IMG/VR virus record: IMGVR_UViG_3300032163_000412
Coordinates: 1 to 22,517 of that record
Direction: 5' to 3' (one strand)
Origin: a virus
DNA length: 22,517 bases
The notes beneath the pieces are model-generated. The model worked only from the letters and a program-made list of their open reading frames with translations. It made no database searches and was not told the origin of the DNA. Positions 1,953 to 14,616 of the stretch are shown here, one piece after another (the stretch's first letter is position 1; every line of letters starts with the position of its first letter). The translations under genes were made by a program, and so were the position numbers.

Positions 1953-2347
1953 CAATAGGTTTTATTTGTGGAGCTTTTGATTTACTTCATCCGGGGCATT
2001 TGGTGGCATTAAGAGATTGTAAAGACAACTGCGATCATTTAATAGTTGGATTACAAGTAGACCCTAATTTAGATAGACCTAATAAACATAAACCTATAGA
2101 GAGTATTTTTGAAAGATATATCCGTTTGAATGCATGTAAATATGTAGATCAGATAATTCCATATGAAACAGATGCAGATTTATTAAATTTATTAAAAACT
2201 ATTCGTGCAGATGTTAGATTTTTAGATGAAGGATATACAGTTAATCCTAAATTTATAATTGGTGAAAAATGTATACCTATTTTCTATATAAAGCGAGATC
2301 ATACATGGTCATCTACGGCATTAAGAGATAAATTAAGGAAAAAATGA
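1949..2347 (+). CDS. Cytidylyltransferase-fold nucleotidyltransferase (HldE C-domain/TagD-like)
   Basis: This 132-aa protein has the class I cytidylyltransferase signature at its N-terminus (GAFDLLHPGH, with H14-P-G-H17) and the second nucleotide-binding block WSSTALR near the C-terminus, equivalent to the ISSTxxR motif. The length is normal for a single-domain enzyme of this family. The family includes the adenylyltransferase half of HldE and glycerol-3-phosphate cytidylyltransferase. Next to a heptose-phosphate kinase and a SIS isomerase it most likely activates a heptose 1-phosphate to an NDP-sugar; the base used cannot be told from sequence. I chose the ATG at 1949 because it overlaps the upstream stop as ATGA. 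An in-frame GTG at 1934 would lie deeper inside the previous gene. Confidence 0.8.
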   Translation: MTIGFICGAFDLLHPGHLVALRDCKDNCDHLIVGLQVDPNLDRPNKHKPIESIFERYIRLNACKYVDQIIPYETDADLLNLLKTIRADVRFLDEGYTVNPKFIIGEKCIPIFYIKRDHTWSSTALRDKLRKK

Positions 2348-3279
2348 TTATCGTAAAAATACCTTTGAGAGTTTCTTTTTTAGGTGGTGGAACTGATTTT
2401 ATAGAGTTCTATACTAAATATGGTGGTGCAGTTCTTTCAACAGCTATTAAGAAATATATTTATGTAATAGTTATACCCCGATTCGATAATAATGTACGAC
2501 TTACTTATACAAAAGCAGAACTTAAAAAGAATGCAAACTCACTTAAACACGATATAGTGCGTGAGTGCATGAAGCGTGTTGGGATCAATCATGGTATAGA
2601 AGTAGTAACTATATCTGATGTTCCAGCAGGAACAGGTCTTGGATCATCTAGTGCGGTTACAGTAGGTGTATTAAAAGCCCTATATGCCTACAAAGGTGTA
2701 GAAACAAATGCACGACAACTTGCAGAAGAAGCGTGTCAAATAGAAATAGATATACTTGGAAAACCAATCGGAGTTCAAGATCAATATATCGCAGCTTACG
2801 GAGGATTTAGAATGTTTGAATTTAGCAAAGATGGAGTAGTTAATAGAAAACTTCATATAGGAAACTTACAGGAACATCTTTTAATGTTTTATACAGGCTT
2901 AACTCACGATTCAGCGGAGATTTTATCAGTACAAAAAGACAATATGCCTAATACTGTAGAGATCTTAAAAGAGATGCGCGAGTTGGTATATAAAGCGAAT
3001 TGGAATGAAGATGGAAATATGGGAGATTTACTTAATACAACATGGGAATATAAGAAACAACTCGCATCAATTACTAATCCGGCCATTGATGAATGGTATA
3101 AAATAGGTATTAAAGCTGGTGCGATTGGTGGTAAGTTGCTTGGAGCAGGTCAGGGAGGATTTTTATTATTCTATTGTTCTCCGGAAGACAAAGATAATAT
3201 ACGCCATGCCTTATCTGATTTAACCGAAATGCCATTTGAACCAGAACCAGATGGAGCAAAGGTAATATTTAACTCATAA
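2344..3279 (+). CDS. hddA: D-glycero-D-manno-heptose 7-phosphate kinase-like GHMP kinase
   Basis: This 311-aa protein begins IVKIPLRVSFLGGGTDF, the opening typical of HddA. It has the GHMP phosphate-binding loop PAGTGLGSSSAVTVG at about residues 94-108 and the C-terminal GHMP motif GGKLLGAGQGGFLLFY. Length and motif order match full-length HddA, which phosphorylates heptose 7-phosphate at the anomeric carbon to give the alpha-1,7-bisphosphate. Fucokinase-type GHMP enzymes share the opening motif, so a different sugar is possible. ATGA overlap upstream and TAATG overlap downstream place it in one operon with the nucleotidyltransferase and the isomerase. No GmhB phosphatase is seen in the window, so the host may supply that step. 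Confidence 0.82.
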   Translation: MIIVKIPLRVSFLGGGTDFIEFYTKYGGAVLSTAIKKYIYVIVIPRFDNNVRLTYTKAELKKNANSLKHDIVRECMKRVGINHGIEVVTISDVPAGTGLGSSSAVTVGVLKALYAYKGVETNARQLAEEACQIEIDILGKPIGVQDQYIAAYGGFRMFEFSKDGVVNRKLHIGNLQEHLLMFYTGLTHDSAEILSVQKDNMPNTVEILKEMRELVYKANWNEDGNMGDLLNTTWEYKKQLASITNPAIDEWYKIGIKAGAIGGKLLGAGQGGFLLFYCSPEDKDNIRHALSDLTEMPFEPEPDGAKVIFNS

Positions 3280-3686
3280 TGAAAGACTTAATCAAAAGAA
3301 TATCAAAAGCCAGATTTGTATTTGTATGCGGTAATGGTGGAAGTGCCGCAACTGCAGAACATTTAACAAATGATTTATTTTCAAAAGGAATTAGTGCAAT
3401 TTGTTTGAACAGTAATACTTCAATAATGACTATGATCGCTAATGATTTTGGTTATGATGTTACCTTTAGTAAACAATTACTTATTTATGCGGATAAAGAA
3501 GATATGCTAATAACTCTTTCTTGTAGTGGAACTTCAAAAAATGTAGTTAATGCAATTTTAGCAGCAAAGATATTAGGCATGGATGTTTATAAATTTAAGT
3601 CTTTTGATTCTGAAGAACCAAGAGATTTTGGTAAATTAGAAGATGAACATCTTCAGTTAGTACATAGAATTAAAAATGCGTTATGA
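3279..3686 (+). CDS. gmhA: SIS-domain phosphosugar isomerase, GmhA-like (short)
   Basis: This 135-aa single SIS domain has the sugar-phosphate loop FVCGNGGSAATAEHLTNDL (residues 15-33) and a second Ser/Thr-rich loop LSCSGTSKNVVNAI. Both match sedoheptulose 7-phosphate isomerase (GmhA), the first step of NDP-heptose synthesis. It is shorter than typical GmhA (about 190 aa) and lacks part of the N-terminal helical region, so the active site formed between subunits may be incomplete or rearranged. It starts at an ATG overlapping the kinase stop, and its own stop overlaps the next start. The context of an HddA-like kinase and an HldE-like transferase makes heptose the best guess. Other SIS functions, such as phosphosugar binding, cannot be excluded. 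Confidence 0.75.
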   Translation: MKDLIKRISKARFVFVCGNGGSAATAEHLTNDLFSKGISAICLNSNTSIMTMIANDFGYDVTFSKQLLIYADKEDMLITLSCSGTSKNVVNAILAAKILGMDVYKFKSFDSEEPRDFGKLEDEHLQLVHRIKNAL

Positions 3687-7378: not shown

Positions 7379-8232
7379 CAAAAGTACTAGGAAAACCAGA
7401 AGCAGATGCAGATGTATTAAATAAAGAACCAAAAGTCTTACTTATTGGATACGGATGGGTCGGACAATATTGTGGAAAGTACTTCAAAAATGCGGATATA
7501 TACACAGCAACAGGATGGAATAGACATAAATTATCACACTATGATTTGGCTATTATTTCAGTTCCTACACCTATGGATAAAGAAACTGGTCAATGTGATA
7601 CTTCAATAGTTGAAAGGGTTGTAAAGAAATTCAAAGGTAAAGTTGAGTACTTCTTAATAAAGTCAACTGTAGAAATTGGTACAACAGATTTACTTGCTAA
7701 AGCATATGGAGTTAGAATTGCCATGAGTCCGGAATATATAGGTGAAACACTAGGCCACCCATTACTAGAACCTCGTAGAGATGCTTTTCAGATCATAGGT
7801 GGTGATGACCGTACTACAGCCATGATAGCGTCATTTTGGCTTACAGTACTTCACGCAGATGCTCCTATATTACAATGTACCGCTAAAGAGGCCGAAATAA
7901 TTAAATACTGTGAGAATTATTGGATTATGCAAAGAGTGGATTATTGGAATGATGTATTTGAGATATGTGAAACAATAGGTGCAAACTTTCCAAGAGTAAG
8001 AGAAGGATTAGTATTAGATCCAAGATTTAGCAGAACCCATTCAAATGTATATCCTAATAATCGTGGATGGGCTGGTAAGTGTTTACCTAAAGATATGGTT
8101 GGACTTGCATATAAAATGAGAAAACTACATAAAATGTTACCTACACTTGAACTTCAGATAATAAAGAATGCTAATCATTGGAGAAAGGGATATAAAGGTA
8201 ATCAAAAGTTACTTCCGAAAAAATGGATTTAA
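7375..8232 (+). CDS. UDP-glucose/GDP-mannose dehydrogenase-like protein, C-terminally short
   Basis: From the ATG at 7375 (ATGA overlap; an earlier in-frame start lies inside the previous gene) this is a 285-aa protein. It has the NAD loop LIGYGWVGQYCG (G25-x-G27-x2-G30), the strand LAIISVPTPMD, the family block SPEYIGE, an E-A-E-I-I-K-Y helix, and the catalytic Cys236 in GWAGKCLPKD. Full UDP-glucose 6-dehydrogenases have about 400 residues; here the C-terminal nucleotide-sugar-binding domain is absent, with only about 50 residues after the Cys. The enzyme may use a different substrate or work with a partner. Codons 79-88 contain a 30-base segment repeated exactly near the right end of the window. 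Confidence 0.75.
   Translation: MTKVLGKPEADADVLNKEPKVLLIGYGWVGQYCGKYFKNADIYTATGWNRHKLSHYDLAIISVPTPMDKETGQCDTSIVERVVKKFKGKVEYFLIKSTVEIGTTDLLAKAYGVRIAMSPEYIGETLGHPLLEPRRDAFQIIGGDDRTTAMIASFWLTVLHADAPILQCTAKEAEIIKYCENYWIMQRVDYWNDVFEICETIGANFPRVREGLVLDPRFSRTHSNVYPNNRGWAGKCLPKDMVGLAYKMRKLHKMLPTLELQIIKNANHWRKGYKGNQKLLPKKWI
7609..7638 (+). repeat. 30-bp exact repeat, copy A
   Basis: These 30 bases are the same as 22484-22513, on the same strand and in the same codon frame (VERVVKKFKG in both). The flanks are unrelated. Copy B lies 4 bases from the right edge of the window. Confidence 0.95.
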
Positions 8233-10361
8233 GCGTTTTAATCCCTGCTAAAAATGAAGAGTTTCTTAACCGAACTATATTGGATTTACTTCAGAATATC
8301 GAGGGTAATACGGAAATTATTGCAGTACTTGATGGTTATGTTCCAGAACCTCCGTTAACAGGAATAGATCCAAGAGTAACAATTATATATAACCCGGAAT
8401 CAGTTGGTCAGCGTATAGCTTCTAATCAGGCAGCCAAACTCGCAAAAGGCAAATATGTAATGAAAGTTGATGCTCATTGTGCATTCGACAAAGGCTTTGA
8501 TGTAAAGATGATTGAAGCATTTAAGGAAGTTGGAGATGATGTGACAATGGTTCCGACCATGCGTAATCTTCATGCTTTTGATTGGGTATGTCCAGATGGG
8601 CATAGAAGGTATCAAGGTCCATCAGGTCCATGTAAAGAATGTGGAAAAGATATAGTAAAGGATATTGTATGGATAGCCAAAACTAATCCTCAATCTAATG
8701 CTTTTAGATTTGATAAGACTATGCATTTCCAGTATCATGGTCAACTTACTCAAGAAGAAGATTATAAAAAAGGGGTTTTAGTTGGATTTAAATTGTCTTT
8801 TGATACCCATATCATATCTTCGAGAATCGTAGATTTTCTTACAGACTTTGCAAATTCTCATCTTCTTGCCTGTAGTCGAGATGATCTTTGGTTCAGGAAG
8901 AATATGGCCATGTATACAGTGAGTCTTTCTTCTATTGATAGTAGCTGGAGCAGTAGAACGCAAGAGATTTTCGGAATCAGTAACAAGTTTCAAGTGAAAC
9001 GGATTGCAACATCTTCTGTTATTACAGAGATGGTCAACAACAAGGATATTTCTACCTCTACCTCTAGGGACATTTCCAATCAACCAAGCATAGACAATAC
9101 GGTGTGCGAGTTCGTCCTTGCCCAAATAAGTGAACCTTCCATATCCATCTACGGACAACCTGCCAACCCAGTTCCAACAGGAAGTCGTCTTGTTAATGCA
9201 TATATTGTTAAAAAACTTAACAGCGTACTTGGTGGAGAATTTATCTATAATGAGAAAACGAGTAGTCTCCATAATGGAAGTGTAACACTAACTCCAATTT
9301 ATGACAACGAATTAAATGAAACATTAAGTCTTCAGGGTTCATGCTTCATGTGTACTAAAGAAAAGTATTTTGAACTAGGTCTATGTGGTGAAGAATTCAA
9401 CTCTTGGGGTCAACAGGGTGTTGAAGTGGCCTGTAAGACTTGGTTATCTGGTGGTCGAGTCTTAGTTAATCGTAGAACTTGGTATGCTCATATGTTTAGA
9501 ACTCAAGGTGGGGATTTTAGTTTTCCATATGCTAATCCTTATGCAAAAATATTAGAGAATCGTGAATTATCAAGAAAATTATTTCAGATGGATGGTTGGC
9601 CAAAAGCTACTCATAAGTTTCAATGGTTATTGGATAAGTTTAATCCTCCGGAATGGGGAATAAGTAAAGGTATTTGTTTCTATTCTGATAATACCTGTGA
9701 TGGAACTAAGTTAGGTGAAGAAGTTAAATCCAGACTTGCAAAAATAAGTAGAGATAAAAAGATTCCAATTACTACTGCCTGTCTTAAAAAGATAGATCTT
9801 GGAGTTAAAAACATTTATTTTCCTTCACTTGAAAGAGGAATACTCACAATGTTTAAGCAAATTTTAGCGGCACTTGAGAATTGTCCACATGATATAGTTT
9901 ATCTTTGTGAAGCAGATGTTATATATGATCCATCTCATTTTGACTTTACACCTCCAAGAAAAGATATTGTCTATTACAATCAGAATAATTGGCAACTTCG
10001 TGTAGATGATGGATTTGCAGTTTATTTCGACTGTAAAAGAGTAAGTCAGATTTGTGCTTATAGGGATATATTGATTGAACATTATCGTAAAAGAATCAAA
10101 ATTGTTGAAGAAATAGGTTTTAGTAATGGTATGGGATATGAACCCGGAAGTCATAATAGACCTCAAAGAGTAGATAATCTTAAAAGCGATATATTCATAT
10201 CAGAAGTACCTAATATTGACTTAGCTCATGGTACAAATGTAACTCGTAGAAAATGGAGGCCGGAAGATTTTAGAAGTCAGCGTAATTGTCAGAATTGGAA
10301 GGAAGGTTTTGAAATCCCCGGTTATGGCGATACCCGTAAGTTCATCAAATTACTTCAATAG
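8223..10361 (+). CDS. Two-domain glycosyltransferase fusion with in-frame insertion
   Basis: This 712-aa ORF begins like copy 1 (MDLSV). Domain 1 is a D-x-H GT-A enzyme: D83-A-H85-C, a Zn-ribbon-like C123-x3-H127-x9-C137-x2-C140, and after an insertion SLQGSCFMCTKEKYFELG, then WGQQGVEVACKTWLSGGRVL and WYAHMFR, closely following the GT27 acceptor-site order. Residues about 184-359 do not belong to the fold; they are the antisense reading of an HNH endonuclease gene. Domain 2 (about 480-712) resembles the protein at 4525 and has an EAD motif. Without the insertion the protein would be about 536 aa, close to the 285 + 234 aa of the separate pair at 3683 and 4525. Both flanks of the insertion keep conserved motifs, so function may be retained. 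It overlaps the upstream gene by 10 bases. Confidence 0.75.
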   Translation: MDLSVLIPAKNEEFLNRTILDLLQNIEGNTEIIAVLDGYVPEPPLTGIDPRVTIIYNPESVGQRIASNQAAKLAKGKYVMKVDAHCAFDKGFDVKMIEAFKEVGDDVTMVPTMRNLHAFDWVCPDGHRRYQGPSGPCKECGKDIVKDIVWIAKTNPQSNAFRFDKTMHFQYHGQLTQEEDYKKGVLVGFKLSFDTHIISSRIVDFLTDFANSHLLACSRDDLWFRKNMAMYTVSLSSIDSSWSSRTQEIFGISNKFQVKRIATSSVITEMVNNKDISTSTSRDISNQPSIDNTVCEFVLAQISEPSISIYGQPANPVPTGSRLVNAYIVKKLNSVLGGEFIYNEKTSSLHNGSVTLTPIYDNELNETLSLQGSCFMCTKEKYFELGLCGEEFNSWGQQGVEVACKTWLSGGRVLVNRRTWYAHMFRTQGGDFSFPYANPYAKILENRELSRKLFQMDGWPKATHKFQWLLDKFNPPEWGISKGICFYSDNTCDGTKLGEEVKSRLAKISRDKKIPITTACLKKIDLGVKNIYFPSLERGILTMFKQILAALENCPHDIVYLCEADVIYDPSHFDFTPPRKDIVYYNQNNWQLRVDDGFAVYFDCKRVSQICAYRDILIEHYRKRIKIVEEIGFSNGMGYEPGSHNRPQRVDNLKSDIFISEVPNIDLAHGTNVTRRKWRPEDFRSQRNCQNWKEGFEIPGYGDTRKFIKLLQ
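8772..9302 (-). mobile_element. HNH homing endonuclease insertion inside glycosyltransferase gene (approximate ends)
   Basis: The GT fold is interrupted between HFQYHGQLTQEEDYKKG and NELNETLSLQGSCF. The DNA between is almost wholly the minus-strand HNH gene, with fewer than about 40 bases on either side. That leaves no room for a group I or II intron core on the + strand. No intein-type splice residues are seen at the edges. The + frame stays open throughout, so the element behaves as an in-frame insertion of roughly 175 codons. The ends are judged from protein similarity only and may be off by some codons. Confidence 0.65.
8778..9272 (-). CDS. HNH homing endonuclease (HNH_3 type), antisense within a glycosyltransferase gene
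   Basis: This 164-aa protein has the HNH_3 layout: SCWNWVGRLSVDGYGRF (31-47), LAHRIVYAWLIG, the nuclease core VVDHLCNNRRCCNPFHL with D80-H81, N90 and H93, then SENLLR, and a C-terminal Zn-knuckle pattern with C119, H121/H123, C141 and C144. All catalytic residues are present, so it should be active. The first ATG after an in-frame stop is at 9272; a weak GGAG lies too far upstream to be a good ribosome site. It is the only convincing minus-strand gene. Its codons are exactly in register with the sense ORF and include no TTA, CTA or TCA: 12 Leu and 8 Ser codons all avoid the triplets that would be stops on the other strand. Confidence 0.85.
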   Translation of the reverse strand: METTRFLIIDKFSTKYAVKFFNNICINKTTSCWNWVGRLSVDGYGRFTYLGKDELAHRIVYAWLIGNVPRGRGRNILVVDHLCNNRRCCNPFHLKLVTDSENLLRSTAPATINRRKTHCIHGHILPEPKIISTTGKKMRICKVCKKIYDSRRYDMGIKRQFKSN

Positions 10362-10382: not shown

Positions 10383-12854
10383 ATGGCAACATTAAAAGCA
10401 TTAGTTATCGGTGGAGGAGCTGGTGGTAGAAGTGGAGGAGGAGGAGCCGGTGGCTATCAATATAATGCTGCCTTTACAGTTACCGCCCAAGCATACACTG
10501 TTACAGTCGGTGGTGGCGGAGCTGTAAACACAAACGGAGCTGATTCAATTTTCAGTACAATAACAGCAACGGGTGGTGGAAAAGGAGCTGGTGATACATT
10601 AGTGGGTGGTAACGGTGGATGTGGTGGAGGTGGTGGTGGCGATGTTGGTGCAGCTGCAGGAACTGGAAGTCAGGGTGGTAATGGAGGGTCGGGTGGAAAT
10701 GGTATTCCAAACTACGGAGCAGGTGGAGGAGGAGGGGCTACTGGAACTGGCGGAAATGGAACAACAACTGTTGGGGGTAATGGTGGTGGTGGTACTGCAA
10801 ATTCTATAACTGGTACTTCAGTAACTTACGCAGGTGGAGGTGGAGGTGGAACATACAATGGTGGTACTGCTGGAACAGGAGGTACTGGTGGTGGAGGTAA
10901 TGGAGACACTGGTGCAGGTACTGCTGGCTCTGGAACAGACAATTTAGGAGGAGGAGGAGGAGGTTCTGACGGAGGTACTGCAGGAATTGGTGGTAAGGGT
11001 GTTGTTATTATGAGTTTTGTAACTGCTGATTTTGCAACACTTCATTGGGTTACATATGGAGGTACAAAAAGTACAGATGGAGCAAATACTGTTGTTACAT
11101 TTAATAGTAGTGGAACTTTTCAAATAAGTTTAGAGTCTGCGTCAAAATCACCCTCTGCTTCTATAAGCCCATCAGCCTCTATATCTCCATCTCCTTCTGC
11201 CTCTATCTCACCCAGTGCCTCTCAATCTCCATCTAGTTCTGTTTCAAGATCAGTATCACCATCTATCTCACCCAGTGCCTCTCAATCTCCTAGTGCTTCT
11301 ATCTCACCCAGTTCATCCGTTTCAAGATCAGTATCACCATCTATCTCACCATCTGCCTCTTTATCTCCATCAGCTTCTATTTCTCCTTCCGCTTCTATTA
11401 GTCCATCTAGTTCTGTTTCAAGATCAGTATCACCATCTATCTCACCCAGTGCTTCTATCAGTCCATCTGCATCTATTTCATCTTCTTCATCTGTAAGTAG
11501 ATCGGTAAGTCCGTCAATATCTCCAAGTGCATCTATTAGTCCCAGTGCATCTATCAGTCCGTCCAGTTCACCGTCAAGGTCTGTAAGTCCAAGTTCGTCC
11601 GTTTCTCCTTCACTTTCACCTAGTGCATCTATATCTCCCTCTGCTTCTATTAGTCCTAGTGCCTCTATCTCTCCTAGCTCGTCCGTTTCAAGATCTGTTT
11701 CCCCTTCTATCAGTCCATCAGCCTCATTAAGTCCGTCAGCGTCTATATCTCCATCCGCTTCTATTTCCCCCAGTACATCTGTTTCATCTTCAGTTTCCCC
11801 GTCTATTAGTCCTTCTGCATCTATTAGTCCCTCTGCATCTATAAGTCCATCTAGTTCTGTTTCAAGATCTGTTTCCCCTTCTATCAGTCCCAGTACATCT
11901 TTATCCCCATCTCCTTCTATCAGTCCCAGTGCATCTTTATCCCCATCTGCTTCTATCAGTCCGTCCAGTTCACCGTCAAGGTCTGTATCACCGTCTAATT
12001 CTGTTTCACCATCTATTTCACCTTCTGCATCTATTTCCCCTAGTTCTTCTATCTCGCCCAGTACATCAGTATCACCGTCTATAAGTCCATCAGCCTCTAT
12101 TTCGCCTAGTTCGTCTGTTTCACCTTCTATAAGTCCTAGTGCATCTCAATCTCCTTCATCATCTATAAGTCCATCTATTTCACCCTCATCTTCAATAAGT
12201 GAATCTCCATCTGTATCTGCCTCTATCTCACCTAGTACTTCTGTTTCACCTTCAATATCTCCAAGTACATCAGTATCTGCTTCAATATCTCCAAGTGCAT
12301 CTACAAGTCCTTCACTTTCGTCTAGTAGTAGTATTAGTCCATCATCGTCAGTTAGTCCGTCTTTGAGTCCTTCTGCCTCAGTTAGTCCTAGTATTCCTCC
12401 GGCATTATTTACAAGACAGGCATCGGTAACTATTCCTTCTACAAAAGCAGACTTGGGAATTACTTATACAGCTCAAGAAGTAATAAATGTAACTTCAGAT
12501 GATGGAATTTTGGTTGGAATGTCGGGGACTTCAATTATTTATTTATTCCATCAATATAAAATTAGACATACAAATAATAAAGATTCAATGACAATACGAG
12601 TTGATTTACAAAGTACATTAGCACCGACATCATCACCTGTTTATTTACAGATTTATAACTTAACTACTGGTTTATGGGAAACATTAGATTCAAATAATAC
12701 AAGTGTAGCGAATACAGATTTTGAACTTGTAGGTAGAGTTACTTCATTTCAAAGTCAATATTATGATACAGCAGTAACAGATCGTAATTTTCCGGATACT
12801 TATAACTTAAATGAAATAACAATCAGAGTTTATCAATATAATAACCAGACATGA
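10383..12854 (+). CDS. Virion adhesin/fibre-like protein: Gly-rich head, long Ser repeat, C-terminal domain
   Basis: This 823-aa protein has three parts. Residues 1-210 are very Gly-rich (runs such as [16 protein letters not shown]), like the Gly-rich domains of phage tail-fibre adhesins, in which Gly-rich loops form the receptor-binding tip. A short linker follows. Then 419 residues alternate Ser with another residue (11136-12392). The last 150 residues form a beta-type domain beginning [21 protein letters not shown] infer a structural surface protein exposed to the host or the environment. The repeat would act as a stiff or glycosylated stalk. It has a leaderless-type promoter, and its TGA overlaps the next gene. 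No enzymatic motif is seen. Confidence 0.75.
11136..12392 (+). repeat. (Ser-x)n coding repeat, 419 residues
   Basis: Ser occupies every second codon, about 210 Ser in all, and no break in the alternation was found by eye. Longer DNA units recur, such as the segment reading [17 protein letters not shown] several times and an exact match between about 11202-11230 and 11262-11290 (60-base offset). Ser codons are mixed among all six types. Confidence 0.9.
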
Positions 12855-14110
12855 ACGCCTTAGATCAATCATTTTGGCCCACATTTGCATCAGCACAGGC
12901 ATTAAGACCTGCCTCAGATACACAGGTCAAGTTATCTATGGGTTTTAAACCCACAGTAACTGCAGGTATAGGACAAGTAAATTTAGCTTTATATAGATCT
13001 GGAAGTCCAAGTGGAAATTTATATGCTCAAATATTTAATGATAGTGCAGGTGTTCCGGGTACTCAAGTTGGAAATGATTCAGATCCAGTTGCTTGTTCAA
13101 CAATTACTTCTACAAGTTTTTCTAGTCCGGATGAAGTTATATTTAATTGGAGTACTACACAACCAGATTTGGTAGCAGGTACACAGTACCACATAGTTTT
13201 AATAGCAACTTATACATTTAGTGGAACAATTTTAGACCTATGGAGTTTGGTTATAGATTCCCCTACTTATGCATCGGGTAACTTAGCTAGTTATGGAACA
13301 AGTTGGTCAAACACAACGAACTATTTCTGTGGATTCAAAGAATATTATGTTATTCCGGGTTCATCATCAGTATCACCATCTATCAGTCCTTCATCATCTT
13401 TAAGTCCTTCACCATCTTTAAGTCCTTCGTCTTCTGCATCTGCATCTGATTCACCTTCCATTTCTCCTTCTGCATCTCAAAGTCCTAGTGCATCTGATTC
13501 ACCTTCCATTTCTCCTTCTGCATCTCAAAGTCCTAGTGCATCCGCATCCCCCAGTGCCTCTATCTCACCTAGTACTTCTGTTTCTGCATCATTATCACCC
13601 AGTGCTTCTATCTCACCATCAAGATCTGTATCATCATCAGTAAGTGCATCTATTTCCCCATCAGCATCTGTAAGTCCATCTGCATCTATTTCACCGTCAA
13701 TATCCCCTAGTTCGTCTGTCAGTCCATCTGTATCCCCTTCTATAAGCCCGTCAGGTTCTATTTCACCATCCGCCTCTGTAAGTCCCAGTGCCTCTATCTC
13801 ACCTAGTACAAGTGTAAGTTCTTCACTTTCACCTAGTGCATCTTTATCACCGTCTGCAAGTAAATCATCTTCACCATCAGCCTCTATCAGTCCATCTGCT
13901 TCAGTGTCACCGTCTGCCTCTCCATCACCAGTTCTTGAAACTTTATCTGTAGATTTTGTAGAAATATGTTTTTCTACTGGTTACAATGATGAATACACAA
14001 CTAGATCCACTTCTTTTGAGAATAAATACTTAACAACAAATACAACTTATACAGACGAGTACACACCAAGAGGTACATCGTTCACAAATTTATATACAAA
14101 AGCGTGTTAG
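12851..14110 (+). CDS. Virion protein: jelly-roll-like head, Ser repeat and duplicated C-terminal motif
   Basis: This 419-aa protein starts at an ATG overlapping the previous stop (ATGA). A TATAAT at 12837-12842 lies 8 bases upstream and could also serve it. Residues 1-170 look like an all-beta carbohydrate-binding or choice-of-anchor type domain: [20 protein letters not shown], then AGVPGTQVG and [15 protein letters not shown]. Residues 171-359 are the alternating Ser repeat (13361-13927). The C-terminal 60 residues contain a duplicated Y-x-DEYT-x-R-x-TSF-x-N-x-Y motif. It is probably a second fibre or decoration protein working with the product of 10383. The exact role is not recognised. 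Confidence 0.7.
13361..13927 (+). repeat. (Ser-x)n coding repeat, 189 residues
   Basis: This is the same strict Ser alternation as in the other two tracts. It includes a near-perfect tandem duplication (13448-13543) and, near 13739, a segment almost the same as one in the gene at the left edge. Confidence 0.9.
13448..13543 (+). repeat. 48-bp tandem duplication within the Ser repeat
   Basis: Two adjacent 48-base units (13448-13495 and 13496-13543) differ only in the last base. Each encodes 16 residues, [16 protein letters not shown]. Sixteen is even, so the Ser alternation is kept. The near-identity indicates a recent slippage or recombination event. Confidence 0.9.
13982..14104 (+). repeat. 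Duplicated C-terminal peptide motif, about 20 residues
   Basis: The pattern Y-x-DEYT-x-R-x-TSF-x-N-x-Y occurs at 13982 and again at 14048. The two copies differ clearly at the DNA level, so this is an old duplication kept at protein level, perhaps a small beta repeat or trimerisation segment. Confidence 0.7.
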
Positions 14111-14124: not shown

Positions 14125-14616
14125 ATGGGACATACACAAACACTAGAAACTAGACAAAAAATTAGTCAAACAATGAAAGGGAAAATGCCGGCCCATTTCG
14201 AGGAATTTCAATCTAAAAGTCCTTTTATTAAGGGGCATATTCAACTTAATACTGGTCGTACTCACTTCAAAAAAGGTTTAATTCCTTGGAACAAAGGAAA
14301 AAGAGTTCCTCAAATTTCGGGTGTAAATGCATATCAATGGAAAGGTGGAACTTATGCAAAAGATAGGAAGATAGACATGGGTAGAAAGAATTATAGAATG
14401 TGGCGAGAAGCAGTTTTTACTAGAGATGGTTGGAAATGTATATGGTGTAATTCAAGTGATAAATTAAATGCAGACCACATTAAACCTTATTCAAAATATT
14501 TTGAATTAAGATACTCCATAGATAATGGGAGAACACTTTGCGAGAGTTGTCACAAATTAACAAATACTTATGGAAATAAAGTTAAATTAGAACAGGAGAA
14601 AACTTATGCCAACTAA
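14125..14616 (+). CDS. HNH homing endonuclease with NUMOD3-like N-terminus
   Basis: This 163-aa protein begins with a NUMOD3-like DNA-binding segment (TLETRQKISQTMKGK) followed by a basic FKKGLIPWNKGKR stretch. It then has a Zn-bound HNH core: C105-x2-C108, D117-H118, N134, and C139-x2-C142-H143. All key residues are present, so it is probably active. It is a free-standing mobile endonuclease inserted between structural genes; neither flanking gene appears interrupted. Unlike the HNH inside the glycosyltransferase gene, 6 of its 8 Leu codons are TTA or CTA, matching the AT-rich genome. Its end overlaps the next ATG by 11 bases, and its last codons carry that gene's ribosome binding site. Confidence 0.9.
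   Translation: MGHTQTLETRQKISQTMKGKMPAHFEEFQSKSPFIKGHIQLNTGRTHFKKGLIPWNKGKRVPQISGVNAYQWKGGTYAKDRKIDMGRKNYRMWREAVFTRDGWKCIWCNSSDKLNADHIKPYSKYFELRYSIDNGRTLCESCHKLTNTYGNKVKLEQEKTYAN
14594..14599 (+). promoter_or_regulatory. Shine-Dalgarno AGGAGA for the gene at 14606
   Basis: AGGAGA ends 6 bases before the ATG at 14606. It lies inside the HNH coding region, so that gene's 3' end doubles as the leader of the structural gene. Confidence 0.65.

Follow-up and report, generated by a model that had tools for sequence, protein, structure and literature searches.

To spare the gene of their host, mobile endonuclease genes are generally believed to require an intron, an intein or a position between genes. 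The window analyzed here, the whole 22,517-base stretch of an IMG/VR viral record, holds an HNH_3 endonuclease gene that lies antisense within a gene for a GT2-family glycosyltransferase (GT), and the GT reading frame passes through it unbroken. A limited literature search returned no report of a homing endonuclease gene lying antisense and codon-aligned in a host gene whose frame stays continuous.

Closest among published systems is the ShiLan domain, in which a mycobacteriophage methylase gene conceals an HNH in a different frame (PMC11855218). The two share an HNH within a phage enzyme gene, a stop-free host frame, the absence of an intron or intein and a disjunct distribution; the ShiLan insert is also predicted to be a loop, and a leaderless translation start has been proposed for it (PMC11855218). 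The window HNH likewise occupies a frame other than that of its host, which stays open through the insert without splicing signals, but it lies on the opposite strand and so cannot be read from the host gene's transcript in the ShiLan manner. It differs further in being codon-aligned, in occurring mostly in AT-rich genomes and in having an apparent antisense promoter; moreover, selection against codons that make stops, Tyr, Cys or Trp on the opposite strand could be measured in the present elements. A codon-aligned reverse frame kept open by exclusion of UUA, CUA and UCA is known from the ambigrammatic narnaviruses (PMC6884476, PMC8155312), and the window HNH similarly has such a frame without stops, beyond chance. 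In narnaviruses, however, it is an RNA virus polymerase that bears a genome-long reverse open reading frame (ORF) of unclear role, whereas here the bearer is a mobile DNA element and the reverse frame continues a known host gene. HNH homing endonucleases also enter phage enzyme genes without an intron in the case of mobE in nrdA of phage Aeh1 and other insertional fissions, but those insertions break the host gene up into distinct coding regions (PMC2988022), and here its frame is continuous. Similarly, the qnu insert in Campsomeris mitochondrial cox2 is an in-frame, nuclease-bearing insert with antiparallel overlapping ORFs, yet it leaves cox2 as two discrete transcripts and polypeptides (PMC5374615).

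A stop-free host frame through an antisense endonuclease gene

The GT gene (8223–10361, plus strand) encodes a two-domain protein of 712 residues with an in-frame insertion (PF00535, E 1.4e-16), and its 712 codons run uninterrupted across the HNH_3 gene (8778–9272, minus strand; 164 residues; PF13392, E 1.1e-10). A sequence-only reading of this DNA had described an intact antisense HNH, codons in register, inside an open GT ORF, and the ORFs and frames bear this out; the remaining two frames of the GT strand contain many stops in the HNH stretch. Also as that reading had it, TTA, CTA and TCA are absent from the 12 Leu codons (CTC four, TTG five, CTT three) and eight Ser codons (TCC five, TCT two, TCG one) of the HNH. 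With expected counts taken from each contig's own, mechanically called genes, zero compares with 10.5 expected (P(0) = 5e-8).

The closest IMG/VR HNH genes, from viral contigs that are mostly metagenomic, were retrieved by HNH sequence alone, so the search was unbiased by the state of the reverse strand. Seven in-gene elements are now known: those of the window, L010 (= L011), L012, L065, L066, L072 and L067. All seven are antisense, in register and without stops in the host frame. The other six HNHs are 51–70% identical to the window's. In L010, L012 (truncated at its contig end), L065, L066 and L072 (60–70%) the HNH occupies the same position in homologous GT genes; that of L067 (~52%) is found at a second GT site, the linker between the two GT domains. 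The sequence-only reading had named GT-frame-breaking insertions in relatives as evidence that would count against it; in none of the seven filled GTs is the frame broken. Counts of TTA, CTA and TCA are again zero in L065 (8.6 expected), L066 (8.0), L010 (7.0), L072 (4.5) and L067 (3.5), across hosts of G+C content (GC) 0.34 to 0.54, and the six in-gene zero-count probabilities multiply to ~1e-25 if the elements are independent.

The same reading had set a second test, namely whether HNH homologues in other positions lack these codons too. Instead, they use them normally or in excess. Among the 52 relatives with both neighbours codirectional, 169 were observed against 132 expected; free-standing relatives in AT-rich contigs carry 7 (L014), 10 (L089), 8 (L092) and 8 (L086), at or above expectation, as do the antisense relatives L077 and L018. 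Stop exclusion in 7/7 in-gene elements and normal codon use elsewhere thus support the earlier suggestion of selection to keep both strands coding. Synonymous codon identity among the in-gene elements (0.497, against 0.443 when shuffled) is near saturation, and the constraint has therefore been long maintained. Long antisense frames of HNH genes also occur in the GC-rich contigs L015, L037, L041, L042, L081, L130 and L140; these were set aside, being without a Pfam match and unremarkable at that GC.

The constraint extends beyond stops. GTA and ATA read as Tyr, GCA and ACA as Cys, and CCA as Trp on the opposite strand, and the in-gene elements contain 35 such codons where 99.4 are expected (z -7.9), compared with 25 against 27.7 in antisense controls and 158 against 137.9 in codirectional AT-rich ones. 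Relative to window genes, third positions of the pooled elements fall in A from 0.39 to 0.19 and rise in C from 0.07 to 0.28, with G and T nearly unchanged, an asymmetry that reflects neither a GC shift nor strand skew. Both features are predicted if selection acts on the makeup of a reverse frame that is translated.

Empty alleles, host enzyme and a putative promoter

Relatives with and without the insertion, called for by the sequence-only reading, permit the insert to be placed at roughly 8787–9296 (plus strand), with ends good to a few codons, by alignment to the nearest empty loops, those of L159 (GVLIG-SNYNKD), L150, L151 and L002. Since the loop at the shared GT site spans 11–24 residues in empty alleles and 192 or 210 in filled ones, the insert measures ~170 codons; the earlier estimate of about 175 residues was roughly right in size and slightly too large. 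It scarcely exceeds the HNH ORF, with only ~15–30 bp outside.

Presence of the insert is patchy. Most GT relatives are without it, and seven changes are required to account for the seven filled alleles on the GT tree; an empty allele is the partner of five of these at a Shimodaira–Hasegawa-like approximate likelihood ratio (SH-aLRT) of 95 or more (window/L002, L072/L007, L066/L200, L065/L170 and L010/L008). Filled alleles beside empty sisters are as expected for a mobile element, and this pattern in the sequences would fit homing. Neither an HNH alignment search nor a promoter-start motif search of genome contigs found a relative. Two kinds of candidate were rejected: long GT spans in a scan of GT genes, seemingly carrying inserts, proved to be tandem GT copies, and the antisense HNH of a Mycobacterium prophage (MW584207) is annotated as lying between genes.

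The host gene shows no decay. Outside the insert, filled GTs are under purifying selection (nonsynonymous divergence dN 0.060 and synonymous divergence dS 0.787 for L072 versus L007), and across four pairs amino-acid changes number 141 on filled branches and 161 on empty ones. A structure model of the fusion, which had been proposed as a check, scores above 90 on the predicted local distance difference test (pLDDT) over most of the GT and below 50 over the bulk of the insert, so the insert is modeled as a floppy loop, in a region that few aligned sequences cover. By Foldseek, the GT resembles GT-A enzymes, among them GalNAc-T2 and chondroitin polymerase.

The HNH itself matches phrog_826 (E 3e-36), has D80, H81, N90, H93 and several Cys residues that are invariant in 30 relatives, and is modeled with a pLDDT of 92.8. 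A PDB search with the HNH profile gave weak matches, the best being the His-Cys box enzyme I-PpoI (E 0.05).

Upstream of the HNH start, consensus match and conservation point to a conserved antisense promoter, probably of sigma-70 type. A -10-like TACACT (9279–9284, minus strand), preceded by TG as in an extended -10, stands 6 nt before the HNH ATG, and a -35-like TTGTCA lies at 9302–9307 (minus strand). The sequence TACACTTCCATTATG is identical in five same-site elements; 17 bp before TACACT these carry TTGTCA (three of them), TTGTTA or TTGCAA, and TGN precedes TACACT in four of the five. The -35 apparently falls within the host flank or on its border. Related elements at gene junctions have TATAAT or TATACT, likewise 6 nt before the ATG and with a matching -35. 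Taken singly, the site in the window would be unremarkable, but a promoter match at this spacing was found in eight of nine elements checked and in two of 96 control HNH genes (background ~0.5%). RNA would start at or beside the HNH ATG, and the mRNA would therefore be leaderless. Searching with the promoter motif yielded no further in-gene copies.

A probable splice-free mobile element and its alternatives

We consider it very likely that the insert is a self-contained, splice-free mobile HNH gene that codes on both strands, with the host frame read through it. It probably represents a clade of ambigrammatic homing endonucleases with both strands readable and a leaderless antisense promoter, placed in host genes or at operon joints and long maintained as a splice-free alternative to introns and inteins. 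On this proposal, a mobile HNH gene would sit in a variable loop of a phage GT under an antisense promoter of its own, of sigma-70 type and probably leaderless, with codons chosen so that the opposite strand, in the host frame, is free of stops and innocuous in composition; splicing would for that reason not be needed. The host gene would be translated straight through to give a GT with a floppy loop of ~170 residues, and the element would invade empty GT alleles, most likely through a nick or cut whose repair copies it in. We infer that both GT and endonuclease are active, that the element homes and that its promoter is used. One stretch would then be under protein-level constraint on both strands, the cost of insertion being paid in synonymous codon choice, and genome annotation would normally miss one gene of the pair. 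Because empty and filled alleles coexist, the idea is directly testable.

Several points weigh on the other side. The P and E values assume independence although the elements are kin; the window GT has accumulated 46 amino-acid changes against 28 in its empty sister; L067 is without the promoter; and L066 avoids Tyr/Cys/Trp-making codons weakly (z -1.5). Nor was conservation of individual reverse-frame residues, over and above composition, significant (0.544 against 0.484, standard deviation 0.053). The insert therefore has no evident function of its own, and the constraint on its product apparently keeps it readable and innocuous without giving it a task.

Relatives between genes raise the question of whether a working fusion matters. 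The HNHs of L073, L076 and L074 (44%, 37% and 39% identity) are antisense and adjoin GT genes at their downstream ends, and L073 and L076 have no TTA, CTA or TCA against 3.5 and 8.5 expected, with two against 7.8 in L074. The L073 reverse ORF opens at an ATGA that it shares with the GT stop; that of L076 (~158 codons, L076:2947-3427) begins 1 nt beyond the GT stop, and its own end overlaps the start of the following gene, again as ATGA. In L074 (HNH at L074:2896-3312, minus strand), the reverse ORF has a GTG start ~6 nt after an AGGAGG motif that arises from HNH Pro codons. Such coupled reverse ORFs mean that the trait is not solely about fusion proteins, and might be taken to indicate that only ribosome passage matters, an open reverse strand avoiding polarity and keeping the next gene coupled whether or not the GT fusion works. 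We regard this as unlikely, though deserving of attention: the reverse frame of the in-gene elements is also poor in Tyr, Cys and Trp, a feature that passage does not require and that is slight in L073 and L076 (L074 does show it), and the GT is under purifying selection with or without the insert. Judging from these arrangements, uninterrupted operon translation may have been the first benefit and in-gene insertion a later step.

Two further explanations are highly improbable. In the first, the GT would have gained a functional domain, itself under selection, in the form of the reverse-strand product, the HNH being secondary; although the composition of the reverse frame resembles coding sequence, the insert has no Pfam match, is modeled with low confidence and lacks residue-specific conservation, and most GT relatives do without it. 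In the second, a novel intron or intein would remove the insert by unrecognized splicing, as the disjunct distribution at a conserved site might suggest. The sequence-only reading had seen no room for an intron core and no intein motifs, and the searches agree: Rfam found no intron around the HNH, the few base pairs beyond the ORF leave no space for a group I or II ribozyme core, and Pfam recognized no intein domain in the GT. Nor does the HNG conserved on the 3′ side of the insert identify an intein: it is the complement of the HNH start region and has no Cys, Ser or Thr directly after it. Moreover, neither route explains an open host frame that avoids particular residues. Lastly, chance or imported codon bias is scarcely credible. 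The HNH does have a third-position G+C of 0.40, above that of host genes, but the window's own probability is minute, the zero counts recur over a wide GC range, the third-position change is not a plain GC shift, and relatives in other positions use the missing codons, which already refutes it.

Other genes of the window and its relatives

A separate HNH gene (14125–14616; PF01844) is codirectional with the operon and has ordinary AT-rich codon use; the six TTA or CTA codons claimed among its eight Leu codons were counted as five TTA and one CTA. In L073, a Phage_Mu_F head gene with an intein (PF14890, E 5.5e-11; 2275–3519, minus strand) holds, inside that intein, an antisense, codon-aligned ORF (2401–3135, plus strand) of 244 residues, with a helix-turn-helix and a weak restriction-endonuclease-like match below the Pfam cut-off. 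It has no TTA, CTA or TCA among 16 Leu and 14 Ser codons (P 2.7e-4), and by sequence may represent an unrelated endonuclease, likewise ambigrammatic, that lodges in an intein; a search for relatives found none. Finally, long Ser-Pro repeat proteins (SPSASISPS...) at 37–936, 10383–12854 and 12851–14110 flank the GT operon of the window, and such proteins are found again beside the GTs of L010 and L072.
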